Positions 25,929 to 51,764 of a stretch of DNA of 64,000 bases are shown here, piece after piece; position 1 is the stretch's first letter, and every line of letters begins with the position of its first letter. This DNA is from Fusobacteriota bacterium (GTDB lineage Bacteria; Bacillota; TC1). The stretch spans positions 186,001-250,000 of the forward strand of contig WTXA01000002.1 of NCBI GenBank assembly GCA_009773805.1, in the 5' to 3' direction. Under the pieces are notes generated by a model, which was not told the DNA's origin, did no database searches, and saw only the letters and a program-made list of their open reading frames with translations. Both the position numbers and the translations under genes were made by a program.

Positions 25929-27164
25929 CTATACTTCATTTATAGCATTATTTTCAAATAAATTAGAGTAAACATAAATCACATCCCTTACTATATCAAC
26001 ATCCAATTCACCAGCTAATGCCATGCTTTTAAGCACTTGACTAGCTTCAAATTGAGACATTGCTTTTCTATACGGCCTATCCTCACTTAATGCTTGATAA
26101 ATATCCATACATGTAATAAGCCTCGAGTTGAAGTCGAGTTCATCGGCCATTAAACCTTCAGGATACCCTGAACCATTCAACTTTTCATGATGGTTAGAAA
26201 TTAATTTTACAATTTCTTCGAAGCCACTTATATTTTGAAGACATTGCTTGGCTATATTTGGATGCTCCTTAATTTTATCGAATTCTAACTTTGACAATTT
26301 ATCAGGCTTTTCTAATATATTGTTGCTAATTGCTAGTTTACCAATATCATGCAGGTCTGCTGCAATTAAGAGCTTCAAAGTCATAGTTTCATCTATTTTA
26401 TAAAATTTTGCCATCTTTTCAAGTTTTTCCGAAAGACCTTCAGAATGTATCTGAGTAAACCTTGATTTTGAATCAATTATTTTTGCGAAGGTAGTTGTTA
26501 TGGTTCTAATTTCATTATAGTTTAACTCACATTCAAAAAGCGGAATTGTTTCTCTGAGACTATATTCTATGTTTTCATCAGTTAGGCCCTCCCAGAATTG
26601 ATTGTTTTCAGATATCTTAGAAAACACATCAACTATTAAAGCTGAAAAATATTTTCCTTTATTATCCTGCACAAATTCTATGATATTATCTTTATTATTT
26701 ATGTTTTTTAAGTCAAAGGTCAGATCTAATAAATCTGCGAAGGATATAATCTGCGCAAGAAGAGGAATCTCATCCTTCAACAGACCAAAGAATCCAGAAC
26801 CATCATATCTTTCATGATGATATTTTATTATGTTTTTAGGTTTTGTTATAAATGGAAATTCTTTTATATTATTCTCGCCAATTAAACAGTGTTCTTTTCT
26901 GCTTTCCATCATATCAATTTTTTCTTTTAAATCCCCTTTTAAATTTTCATGCAATATTTTCATACTGGCACCATTATCATGCATTAATGATAATGAAGCC
27001 AAATCAAATCTTGCTTCTTTAGATAAGCCCATTTCAACGGCTATCTTTTCCGATATATATGAAATCCTCTTTGAATGATTAGTAGAAAGATCAAATATAT
27101 CAAGTTCAATAATATCTAGTATGTTTGCAACACCTATTAAAAATTCATTTAAGTTGAATTTCAT
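25929..27164 (-). CDS. Tandem HD / HD-GYP phosphodiesterase-like protein
   Basis: 411 aa cytoplasmic protein with two HD-type domains. The first (about 20-190) has LSLMHDNG and HHERYDGSGFFG and is somewhat degenerate. The second (about 215-400) has the full pattern AADLHDIGKLAI, ...KEHP..., SNHHEKLNGSGYPEG and RLITCMDIYQALSEDRPYR. The family hydrolyses c-di-GMP. No sensor or receiver domain is attached. It stands after the c-di-GMP riboswitch and the decayed cyclase gene. Confidence 0.85.
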   Translation of the reverse strand: MKFNLNEFLIGVANILDIIELDIFDLSTNHSKRISYISEKIAVEMGLSKEARFDLASLSLMHDNGASMKILHENLKGDLKEKIDMMESRKEHCLIGENNIKEFPFITKPKNIIKYHHERYDGSGFFGLLKDEIPLLAQIISFADLLDLTFDLKNINNKDNIIEFVQDNKGKYFSALIVDVFSKISENNQFWEGLTDENIEYSLRETIPLFECELNYNEIRTITTTFAKIIDSKSRFTQIHSEGLSEKLEKMAKFYKIDETMTLKLLIAADLHDIGKLAISNNILEKPDKLSKLEFDKIKEHPNIAKQCLQNISGFEEIVKLISNHHEKLNGSGYPEGLMADELDFNSRLITCMDIYQALSEDRPYRKAMSQFEASQVLKSMALAGELDVDIVRDVIYVYSNLFENNAINEV

Positions 27165-27562: not shown

Positions 27563-27635
27563 TTTGGCAACTGGCTGCCATATTAAAGGCCCTCTAGTTT
27601 TGCGTCGCTATTTTTCAATAGTTTTGCTCTTATCA
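27563..27635 (-). promoter_or_regulatory. c-di-GMP-I (GEMM-I) riboswitch
   Basis: The minus strand carries the aptamer hallmarks in order: GCAAAACTATTGAAAAATAG (GAAA-type tetraloop arm), GACGCAAA, the GGGCCT block, GGCAGCC and AGTTGCC. A T tract follows (GGTGG then seven T) but the terminator stem is weak. It precedes only the decayed GGDEF gene, then the HD-GYP gene about 400 bases further on. Confidence 0.85.
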
Positions 27636-27746
27636 TTATTGGTCTGGGAATAATTATTTTTTATTTTATATTTATATTAATTAATTTAAGTATTACTTAA
27701 TTTGATTATATAATCTTTATTTTATATTTACAATCATTATATAAAA

Positions 27747-48577: not shown

Positions 48578-49633
48578 TTAAACAACACTATTCATTCGAA
48601 ATAATGAAGGATACCAAATAAGCCCCATAACTCCAATATAAAATACATTTAAAAACTTAAATAACATATCACTATTAGGTTCATTTACTGTTTTACTGCT
48701 TATAGCAACTTCGTTTTGTCCACTTGCTATTTCTGTTGCACTAATAGTAGTATTTTCTACAGGTTTAGTTTCTTGTATTGCTATACTATTTGTTTCGTTT
48801 TCTACTGGTTTAGTTTGTTGTACTGTTGTACTACTAATAGTTTTTGCTATTGGTTTAGTTTGTACTGTTGGAGTAGCAGTTGTATTTTCTACTGGTTTAG
48901 TTTGTACAGTTGGTGTAGTTGTAGTATTTTCAACTTGCTTTGGTTGCACAACTGTTGTAGGATTAAGCCCTTCTATAATTGCTTTTGTATATTTATAGAA
49001 TTCAGCAGTTTTTGTATTTCTGCCTGATGATGTTAGACTAGAAAAAAAACTTGCTCTTTGTGCTGTTGATAACTCTATTTGCACTCCAGCATTTCTTGAA
49101 TTTTTATTTACTATATTTGATGTACTTGTTCCTCCTAAATTTGAAGGAGCAGTAGCTACTGCAAAACCTGCATTTTGCAAACTTATTGTAATATTAGCGA
49201 CCATTGTTTTATCAAGTCCACCAACATAAGTTAGTTTAGATGAACCTGAAAATCCATGAATTGATAAGGTTCTACTTTTACTTTGAACCAAGGAAATTGC
49301 TATAGGTTCATCAAATATTGTTGAAGTTATATGTAATGAGCTATTATTACTGCTCATTATTCCTTGGAATGAATAATAACTATAACTTAATCCAGCAATA
49401 TTATCAGCTAGTTCTGTAGTTCCAGGTTCAATTCCTCCTCCATGAATGGCAATTATTGCCAAATTTGAAGAGTTTTCACGACTGCTAATTTTATAGTCGG
49501 TTCCTTCAACTTTTGCTGCTGAAAGTTCCTGAAAATTAGAATACAAATCAGCTGCTTTTACTGTTGTTATATTTACAGAAAATAGAAGTAAACTGATAGT
49601 TACTACTATAAATCCAGCTTTTAAGATTCTCAT
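48578..49633 (-). CDS. Secreted poly-gamma-glutamate hydrolase-family protein with repeat stalk and C-terminal anchor
   Basis: 351 aa. Signal peptide (MRILKAGFIVVTISLLLF...VKA), then a zinc-peptidase domain of the PghP/YmaC (DUF867) type: LAIIAIHGGGIEPGTTELA (H, E ligands), YSYYSFQGI, LHITSTIFDEP and RTLSIHGFSG. A stalk of about five VQTKPVENTT-like repeats (about 225-305) leads to a hydrophobic C-terminal segment (FLNVFYIGVMGLIWYPSLF). The repeats and tail suggest display at the cell surface. The start MRILK is chosen since GAGGGAG overlaps the ATG three codons earlier. Two c-di-GMP-I riboswitches with terminators precede it. No capsule genes are nearby. Confidence 0.8.
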   Translation of the reverse strand: MRILKAGFIVVTISLLLFSVNITTVKAADLYSNFQELSAAKVEGTDYKISSRENSSNLAIIAIHGGGIEPGTTELADNIAGLSYSYYSFQGIMSSNNSSLHITSTIFDEPIAISLVQSKSRTLSIHGFSGSSKLTYVGGLDKTMVANITISLQNAGFAVATAPSNLGGTSTSNIVNKNSRNAGVQIELSTAQRASFFSSLTSSGRNTKTAEFYKYTKAIIEGLNPTTVVQPKQVENTTTTPTVQTKPVENTTATPTVQTKPIAKTISSTTVQQTKPVENETNSIAIQETKPVENTTISATEIASGQNEVAISSKTVNEPNSDMLFKFLNVFYIGVMGLIWYPSLFRMNSVV

Positions 49634-49659
49634 AAGTTTCATCTCCCTCTAAATAAAAA

Positions 49660-49692
49660 ATACTTCTATTCCGGTTACCGAAATAGAAGTAT
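49660..49692 (-). terminator. Terminator of the gene-proximal c-di-GMP riboswitch
   Basis: A 15-bp stem (ATACTTCTATTTCGG/CCGGAATAGAAGTAT) with a TAA loop, then TTTTTTATTT on the minus strand. TCGGTAAC in it can pair with GTTGCCGA at the aptamer end, an antiterminator. Confidence 0.88.
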
Positions 49693-49719
49693 GTAAAACA
49701 TTTATCTTCCAAATATATA

Positions 49720-49800
49720 TCGGCAACTCGGCTACCTTAGTCTTTCGACCTTAGGTCCGTGGCTTTGCGTCTCCAACTTTCGTTGAATTTGCTCTTTTCT
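49720..49800 (-). promoter_or_regulatory. c-di-GMP-I riboswitch, gene-proximal copy
   Basis: The minus strand carries GAGCAAATTCAACGAAAGTT, GGAGACGCAAAGCC, ACGGACCTAAGGTC, a GAAA loop and AAGGTAGCCGAGTTGCCGA, matching the GEMM-I consensus in every arm (GAAA tetraloop and receptor, GACGCAAAGCC, GTAGCC.AGTTGCC). Confidence 0.95.
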
Positions 49801-49856
49801 TTTTTTCTTTACACTTCTTAAATGAAGTATCATTTAAGATATTATTTTAATAAAAA

Positions 49857-49887
49857 AACTTCCATTCGAATTACCGAAATGGAAGTT
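49857..49887 (-). terminator. Terminator of the distal c-di-GMP riboswitch
   Basis: AACTTCCATTT/GAATGGAAGTT (11 bp with one G-U) followed by five T. Its loop TTTCGGTAA can pair with TTGCCGAAA at the end of the upstream aptamer. Confidence 0.88.
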
Positions 49888-49910
49888 TTGAAATCTTAAC
49901 TTACTTAAAA

Positions 49911-49992
49911 CTTTCGGCAACTCGGCTACCATAGTCTTTATGACCTTAGGCCCTTGGTTTTGCGTCCTCAATTTTCGTTGAGTTTGCTCTTT
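49911..49992 (-). promoter_or_regulatory. c-di-GMP-I riboswitch, distal copy
   Basis: Minus strand: GAGCAAACTCAACGAAAATT, GAGGACGCAAAACC, AAGGGCCTAAGGTC, ATAAAGACTATGGTAGCC and GAGTTGCCGAAAG. It is a second full GEMM-I aptamer, about 110 bases upstream of the first and with its own terminator. Confidence 0.94.
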
Positions 49993-50156
49993 TCTTTGTA
50001 ATCGAATCTTAACACATTTCTTATTAAAATGCAATGATTTTGATAAGAATAATTATATATAATTGGATAGTAATGGTTTTGTATAGTCATTCCTTAAAAC
50101 CCATATGCATACTTGTTTCTTTTTATGCATTTGATCCTTGATTATATATATATAGT

Positions 50157-51764
50157 CTAACTCATATTGAGAAACAGTTGCAAAATATCTGGATCAAATT
50201 GGGTGCCTGAATTTCTTCTCATTTCTTCAATAGCTTCTTCATTTGTCATCGCTGACCGATATACCCTATCGTTAGTCATAGCATCATACGAATCAGCAAT
50301 AGCCACTATGCGAGATAGAATCGGTATTTCCTCTCCAATTAAACCTTGAGGATATCCTTTACCATCCCATCTTTCATGGTGGCAAAGTATACAATCCGCT
50401 ATAGGTAAAAGCTCAGAAGTTGCTCTTGCAATCCTATAACCAACTTCAGGATGTTTTCTCATTTCGATCCAATCATCATTATTAAGCTTACCAGGCTTTG
50501 ATAAAATTTTAGGACTTACACCCATTTTACCAATATCATGCAAGGTGGATAATAACTCCAAATCATTTAGTTGATCCTTTGTCAGAGACATAGCTTGTCC
50601 TATATCCTTAGATAGTTGTACTATTCTCTCTGCATGTTCTTCAGTTTCTTGGCTTTTCTCAAACATTATTACTTTTATAGAAGCTATTATTGAGCTGTGA
50701 GCACTTTTGCTTTCTAATAACTTCTGCTTATACATTGATTCCTCAGCGGCAATCAATATGTCATCCATTATTTCAGTTTCAAAGTTCTTTGTTGCACATC
50801 CTAAAGAAATACTGGGATAAATTAAGCTATCATTTAATGCATCTACTTCACAAGCATTATGTATGCGTCTACATATTAATTGAGCAGACTTTTCATCTGT
50901 TTTGGGTAGTAAAATTGCAAATTGGTCTTCTCCTATTCTTGAAATTATATCTTCAGCTCTGCAGGAACTTTTTAAAATTCTGGCTATTTCAATAATCATT
51001 TCATCACCCTTGGAGTGTCCAAAGCCTTCATTTATTACTTTCAAACCGTTTATATCACCCATAATAACTGAAATTGGCAACTGTCTTGGAGTATCGAGTC
51101 GTTTTTTTTCCTCTTCAAAGTAACTTCTATTATATAGCCCTGTTAAATAATCGTGATAACTAATAAATGCAATCTCTTCATTTTGCTTTTTCAGTTCTAT
51201 TGTCTTTTGTGCTAATTCACTAATCATATTTATTAATCCGCTTAAAAAATCTAAGTACCTAAATATGGTTTCTTTATTATACACATTACATTCTTCAAGT
51301 GCTTTCATATATTTCACTTTATCAAAGTCCAGCTTTTCTGCTTGTTTGATAAAGAAATCTTTATTAGGTGTTTCAAAAAAGAACTGTCCAATGAATAAAT
51401 TGGCAACGTGCACTCCAGCAATAATGATTGGAGTTGCAATATCTACCATACCATTCTGGCAAACATGAATTGAGTGTTTCTCGTTTTCTATTAGCTGATT
51501 CGCTAAAATACTATCGCTTATGAAGCATCTCTCTGAAGATATTTTGTGTTTTCTATGAAAATCCATGCAAATACTTTTTCCACCCACATCATAAAGTATA
51601 TTTCCTTTATGATTCACTATAGCAGTGGTTAATCCAGTGGCAAAAGAGAAGTTCTCCATGATTCTGGATAGCTTTTCAATTTCCAAGATTTCATTTACAT
51701 CTTTTATGTCTTCTGATTTAAATAAAGATGATTTTTTCAATTGTTTATTATCGTTATTTTCCAA
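50157..51764 (-). CDS. PocR-GGDEF-HD-GYP signalling protein
   Basis: 535 aa cytoplasmic sensor. N-terminal PocR-type ligand domain (about 25-195; cysteines in KSICMDFHRK, SERCFISD and VCQNG), a short coiled coil, GGDEF-like domain (about 205-360) and HD-GYP domain (about 365-535). The cyclase motif reads RIGEDQF instead of RxGGDEF, so synthesis is probably lost. The HD-GYP motifs are intact (STLHDIGKMGV, CHHERWDGKGYPQG, AIADSYDAMTNDRVYR), so it likely hydrolyses c-di-GMP. It starts at TTG after AGAGGAG. It lies just upstream of the tandem riboswitches. Confidence 0.88.
   Translation of the reverse strand: MENNDNKQLKKSSLFKSEDIKDVNEILEIEKLSRIMENFSFATGLTTAIVNHKGNILYDVGGKSICMDFHRKHKISSERCFISDSILANQLIENEKHSIHVCQNGMVDIATPIIIAGVHVANLFIGQFFFETPNKDFFIKQAEKLDFDKVKYMKALEECNVYNKETIFRYLDFLSGLINMISELAQKTIELKKQNEEIAFISYHDYLTGLYNRSYFEEEKKRLDTPRQLPISVIMGDINGLKVINEGFGHSKGDEMIIEIARILKSSCRAEDIISRIGEDQFAILLPKTDEKSAQLICRRIHNACEVDALNDSLIYPSISLGCATKNFETEIMDDILIAAEESMYKQKLLESKSAHSSIIASIKVIMFEKSQETEEHAERIVQLSKDIGQAMSLTKDQLNDLELLSTLHDIGKMGVSPKILSKPGKLNNDDWIEMRKHPEVGYRIARATSELLPIADCILCHHERWDGKGYPQGLIGEEIPILSRIVAIADSYDAMTNDRVYRSAMTNEEAIEEMRRNSGTQFDPDILQLFLNMS

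Follow-up and report, generated by a model that had tools for sequence, protein, structure and literature searches.

In this work, we analyzed the leader of a predicted secreted poly-gamma-glutamate hydrolase gene within 64,000 nucleotides of a contig (WTXA01000002.1) from a Fusobacteriota bacterium, a stretch hereafter called the window. Two full-length c-di-GMP-I (GEMM-I) aptamers follow one another on the minus strand of this leader, and we estimate a probability of about 0.78 that they form a tandem ("pseudo-cooperative") pair on one transcript, in which each unit would turn transcription OFF in the manner of the Cd1 riboswitch. From 5' to 3', the minus strand carries a promoter-like site, aptamer 1, terminator 1, a spacer hairpin, aptamer 2, terminator 2, a ribosome-binding site and the gene. 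These elements and the upstream neighbor are located as follows:

50157-51764, minus strand: upstream gene with PocR, GGDEF and HD-GYP domains (Pfam), the GGDEF motif being degenerate (GEDQF)
50006-50034, minus strand: promoter-like site TTGCAT-17-TAAGAT with TGn before the -10, read by eye
49913-49998, minus strand: c-di-GMP-I aptamer 1 (Rfam RF01051, 75.6 bits, model positions 1-87 of 87)
49912-49924, minus strand: 3' strand of aptamer 1, CGAGUUGCCGAAA, an antiterminator half that includes the ligand-contact CC (49917-49916) and pairs with 49879-49867
49852-49889, minus strand: terminator 1, a minimum-energy hairpin around CUUCCAUUUCGGUAAUUCGAAUGGAAG followed by U7
49817-49838, minus strand: spacer hairpin CUUAAAUGA-UACU-UCAUUUAAG (in DNA, CTTAAATGA-TACT-TCATTTAAG), by direct reading
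49719-49803, minus strand: c-di-GMP-I aptamer 2 (RF01051, 82.2 bits, model positions 1-87 of 87)
49720-49727, minus strand: 3' strand of aptamer 2, GUUGCCGA, an antiterminator half that includes the ligand-contact CC (49723-49722) and pairs with UCGGUAAC at 49681-49674
49655-49692, minus strand: terminator 2, AUACUUCUAUUUCGGUAACCGGAAUAGAAGUAU followed by a U-rich tail, from the terminator scan (15 pairs) and the minimum-energy fold
48578-49642, minus strand: gene of the predicted secreted poly-gamma-glutamate hydrolase (PF05908, E 4.9e-67; open frame)

Both aptamers belong to RF01051 by covariance model and fold, with scores far above its gathering cut-off of 35 bits, and their 5' ends are 195 bases apart; the original prediction had placed two complete GEMM-I aptamers about 190 bases from each other. 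Each unit possesses its own expression platform and no gene intervenes, so that two complete riboswitches of the same class stand in tandem. The span first assigned to the pair (49660-49992) was nearly right but left out six bases of aptamer 1 as well as the U-run that belongs to terminator 2. The cores of the two units are similar, while aptamer 1 has more non-standard pairs relative to the Rfam consensus. The spacer hairpin between terminator 1 and aptamer 2 (49838-49817) is a perfect 9-bp stem, also kept in a congeneric species (G001, Bacillota MAG STCSWMC_229), and perhaps insulates the two riboswitch folds from each other. Further Rfam matches in the leader (STnc150, PyrR, L10 leader and others) scored below the cut-off and were rejected as chance.

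From the promoter-like site, transcription is predicted to start near 49999, just at the 5' boundary of aptamer 1, and this proximity leaves aptamer 1 hardly any 5' P1 strand. The aligned site in G001 reads TTGTAT-17-CATAAT, and three single-switch leaders carry TTGCAT/TTGCTT-17-NATAAT at the equivalent place. The automatic promoter scan of the region listed no minus-strand promoter, and the site at 50034-50006 was thus recognized by eye and by comparison. No comparable site was seen between units 1 and 2, which are presumably carried on a single transcript.

The window holds a third aptamer of this class, which precedes an HD-GYP gene (25929-27164):

27563-27638, minus strand: third c-di-GMP-I aptamer (63.4 bits, A20, shortened P3)

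The identity of the ligand is less sure than that of the class. At Rfam position 11, which corresponds to position 20 of Vc2 in the mapping made in this analysis (in agreement with G11 of Cd1), both tandem aptamers have A instead of G (base 49988 in aptamer 1 and base 49793 in aptamer 2). The G20 that contacts one guanine of the ligand in the c-di-GMP consensus pocket is therefore missing from both, and the A20 of GEMM-Ib riboswitches stands in its place. All four aptamers of the genome and 8 of the 10 found in the genus carry A20, versus G20 in every aptamer read in the phylum outside this genus, a sample of high-scoring matches, which favors G. A20 is the residue of the cGAMP type (PMC6456294, PMC9481103), and these switches might thus sense 3',3'-cGAMP, as GEMM-Ib riboswitches do, or be promiscuous. 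Furthermore, the Gmet_0970 switch, which senses cGAMP, becomes a c-di-GMP switch through A20G (PMC6456294), and a Desulfobacca aptamer is shifted towards cGAMP by a change of the cGAMP-variant type at a ligand-contacting pocket base (PMC9481103).

Nevertheless, several observations make such a specificity unlikely. First, orthologous switches exchange A and G at position 20: the G001 orthologues have G in aptamer 1 and A in aptamer 2, and the leader of the HD-GYP gene has A here, A in G003 and G in G004. Second, c-di-GMP binding by Cd1 was not greatly affected by G11A (PMC9262584). Third, among the 17 GGDEF domains of the 1.7 Mb genome, none of the 14 with a core found by pattern has the Hypr serine (one has N), and one further domain read by eye has D; the CD-NTase domain (PF18144, SMODS) had no match in the genome. 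Finally, the remaining pocket is of the c-di-GMP type, with G21-C46. The Geobacter cGAMP aptamer Gm0970 has a swapped pair in place of G21-C46. The Geobacter GEMM-Ib cGAMP riboswitches (PMC6456294, PMC8835794) resemble the present units in A20 but differ from them in the rest of the pocket and in the terminator logic, both of which follow the c-di-GMP OFF type here; the genome yielded no recognizable cGAMP synthase. Since orthologues swap A and G, no such synthase was recognized and Cd1 tolerates G11A, we retain c-di-GMP as the likelier ligand. It would be a long shot that, with the genus-wide change to A20, all GEMM-I switches of this genome have come to respond to cGAMP, or to cGAMP and c-di-GMP alike; the mixed G20/A20 doublet of G001 would then gate a single matrix-degrading enzyme by two signals. 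As regards other c-di-GMP receptors, no PilZ match was obtained in the 1.7 Mb genome, and a search of the genome for c-di-GMP-II riboswitches gave no match, the control of that search likewise matching nowhere, so that the result does not speak for their absence.

Regarding the expression platforms, a consensus terminator scan yielded two sites in the region, versus 0.2 expected, and flagged terminator 2; both terminators form as minimum-energy hairpins, as anticipated by the original prediction of one terminator for each aptamer. In unit 1, the antiterminator comprises 13 contiguous pairs (49924-49912 with 49879-49867), a length reached in none of 2000 dinucleotide shuffles of the downstream stretch. 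The 8 contiguous pairs of unit 2 were equaled in 127 of 2000 shuffles; by length alone, the antiterminator is clear in unit 1 and not in unit 2, since 8 bp are not rare in shuffled sequences. It had been proposed that GTTGCCGA, as the 3' strand of P1, pairs with TCGGTAA of the following terminator. The pairing is found in both units, but this segment does not correspond to the 3' strand of a classical P1: its GUU closes P3 in the Rfam structure, and its GCCGA holds the ligand-contact CC.

The shorter antiterminator of unit 2 and the more numerous non-standard pairs of aptamer 1 raise the question of whether a single switch works, the other unit being decayed or a constitutive attenuator. Conservation argues against it. 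The doublet also stands before this gene in G001 (locus L053), the only orthologue found in a scan of genome contigs, and the aptamers, linkers, spacer and terminators of the two species are 88-100% identical (82/86 in aptamer 1, 82/85 in aptamer 2, 35/35 in terminator 1 over 49885-49851 and 37/38 in terminator 2), with 25/32 in the promoter stretch. Each unit matches its counterpart in G001 (96% for unit 1, 95% for unit 2) better than the two units of the pair match each other (74%), which indicates that the doublet arose before the two species diverged and has been kept. Both units are complete and their terminators and antiterminators are preserved, whereas decay should have produced drift, and we consider that a lone functional switch is quite improbable. 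The gene upstream of the leader, which likely encodes a c-di-GMP phosphodiesterase judging from its domains, is replaced by a different one in G001; the conserved leader thus behaves as an independent, maintained unit, and the idea that the phosphodiesterase is a co-regulated part of it was rejected. In G001 itself (G001:C7, L074 / L054), the leader with the single switch, before the second hydrolase, shares 94% identity with tandem unit 2, and the two signal-peptide starts are nearly alike, which suggests a recent gene conversion between the paralogous hydrolases.

The polarity of the tandem switches was evaluated by folding the growing transcript. The probability of the antiterminator reached 1.0 in units 1 and 2 before the 3' arm of the terminator was transcribed. 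In six of seven related units (both units of the present tandem, both of its G001 counterpart, and one single-switch unit each from this genome and G001), it amounted to 0.96-1.0 once the 5' arm and loop were out and fell to near 0 when the terminator was complete; the single switch of G003 (G003_single) reached only 0.57. In all seven, the antiterminator pairing includes the ligand-contact CC, and across related units all pairs of the outer terminator stem are kept through two two-sided changes. The terminators lie downstream and have no base in common with the aptamers, so that a ligand-bound aptamer and a terminator can coexist. In the full-length fold without ligand, the terminator is more stable than the antiterminator, and the OFF decision must therefore be kinetic, as described for Cd1. 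Cd1 controls the flagellar operon of Clostridioides difficile; its antiterminator base-pairs with C87 and G86, which unfolds the pocket, and the ligand switches transcription OFF (PMC9262584). The present units would share with Cd1 its class, its OFF polarity and an antiterminator that takes the ligand-contact C and the adjoining G, excluding the aptamer by structure prediction; Cd1 differs in being a single switch, in its G at position 11 (Vc2 20) and in its flagellar target. The use of ligand-binding residues by the antiterminator, its formation before the 3' arm of the terminator and its presence in all seven related units support the OFF polarity put forward originally, as far as predicted pairing and timing can tell. 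ON switches, in which the ligand would prevent termination as in Bc3-5 or pilM, do occur among known tandem c-di-GMP-I systems (PMC4759541), and the third aptamer of the window (27638-27563) looks ON-type, with a 3' strand that overlaps the terminator, a weak hairpin followed by U7, but such a design is very improbable for the tandem pair because its terminators share no base with the aptamers and the aptamer-excluding element is the antiterminator, the Cd1 arrangement.

The computed aptamers, terminators, pairings, conservation and gene identities suggest how the pair of OFF switches would work, from ligand, polarity and single transcript to enzyme activity and physiology. In the ligand-free state, each aptamer would have its 3' end paired to the terminator's 5' arm and loop once these are made, and RNA polymerase would read on. 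With ligand bound, the 3' end would be held in the pocket, the terminator would form and transcription would stop. As both checkpoints would have to be passed, readthrough would be the product of two probabilities, with tight shut-off at high c-di-GMP and a modest steepening as the outcome. For two independent, identical OFF steps, we calculated that the input range from 90 to 10% output narrows from 81-fold to 40-49-fold and that the IC50 falls to about 0.4-0.5 of Kd, while a maximal termination of 90% per step lowers the leak floor from 10% to 1%, i.e. squares it. Doubling mainly buys tight shut-off and lower leak. The "sharper or digital" response envisaged at first was overstated, given that the range remains 40-49-fold and the larger effects concern the leak floor and the IC50.

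The regulated protein matches PF05908 with 225.6 bits (cut-off 22) over the whole profile (1-191 of 191) and has a signal-peptide-like N-terminus, in keeping with the secreted hydrolase originally described, as well as a Thr/Pro-rich linker and a hydrophobic C-terminus seen by eye. Its start is likelier at the second ATG (49633), better spaced from the ribosome-binding site GAGGGAG. The enzyme is predicted to cut poly-gamma-glutamate, although membership in PF05908 is no proof of substrate; the support for this substrate is the presence in the genome of capB-like, capC, capA-like and ggt genes, and nothing else. The genome has two PF05908 genes, and the second one, the sole paralogue, stands behind a single c-di-GMP-I switch of the same OFF design (locus L001). 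Convergent with it lies a cluster (L078 1022-6202, ~G000:C2:328.5-333.7 kb) that encodes a CapB-like protein with a Mur-ligase domain, CapC, a CapA-like protein and a gamma-glutamyltranspeptidase (capB-capC-capA-ggt), and the same cluster is present in G001 (L079). The location of the paralogous, singly switched hydrolase beside these genes leads us to infer that c-di-GMP likely preserves the polyglutamate matrix by switching the hydrolases off: at high c-di-GMP the hydrolase would be off and the poly-gamma-glutamate matrix intact, and when c-di-GMP falls the matrix would be degraded.

Elsewhere in the window, between 52300 and 58000, just past a tRNA gene (52296-52218), GC skew jumps abruptly (about -0.2 to -0.6) and AT skew does so too; minus-strand coding is G/T-rich there, with secreted or pilus-like proteins by eye.

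Tandem c-di-GMP riboswitches are well documented. According to one census (PMC9481103), c-di-GMP-I is the commonest tandem riboswitch class, with 347 doublets and 12 triplets; c-di-GMP switches are enriched in tandem arrangements (PMC12452182), and our search of 61 genomes contained 12 close c-di-GMP-I pairs among the matches listed. Like the present one, the doublets of that census combine two full aptamers of one class, a terminator for each, no intervening gene and a single target; unlike them, the present doublet has A20 in both pockets and stands before a poly-gamma-glutamate hydrolase gene, a target that did not occur in the available part of the source (PMC9481103). The triple tandem Bc3-5 of Bacillus thuringiensis, in which reporter output was more stringent and more digital than with one or two units, in kind agreement with the calculation above, is likewise a series of the same class before a surface-related operon, but has three units and ON polarity (PMC4759541). 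Our literature search found no paper linking c-di-GMP riboswitches with a poly-gamma-glutamate hydrolase. It seems, then, that the tandem architecture was already known, while the hydrolase target and the pocket substitution are new. The original prediction was supported in its two serial switches and their OFF polarity, and had missed the catalogued architecture, A20 and the poly-gamma-glutamate regulon.

Altogether, both poly-gamma-glutamate hydrolases of this genome stand under c-di-GMP-I switches, versus none of 18 PF05908 loci of the phylum outside this genus, where no Rfam match of any kind, and hence no c-di-GMP-I, was obtained. An ON-type switch before the HD-GYP gene would mean negative feedback, and a retuning by A20, if true, would imply an unrecognized source of cGAMP in a small-genome member of the Bacillota. 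The system offers a natural test case, in that one cell has two paralogous enzymes, one behind a doubled and the other behind a single switch, and the specificity base varies between orthologous pockets; the regulon would tie c-di-GMP directly to the shedding of the polyglutamate matrix.
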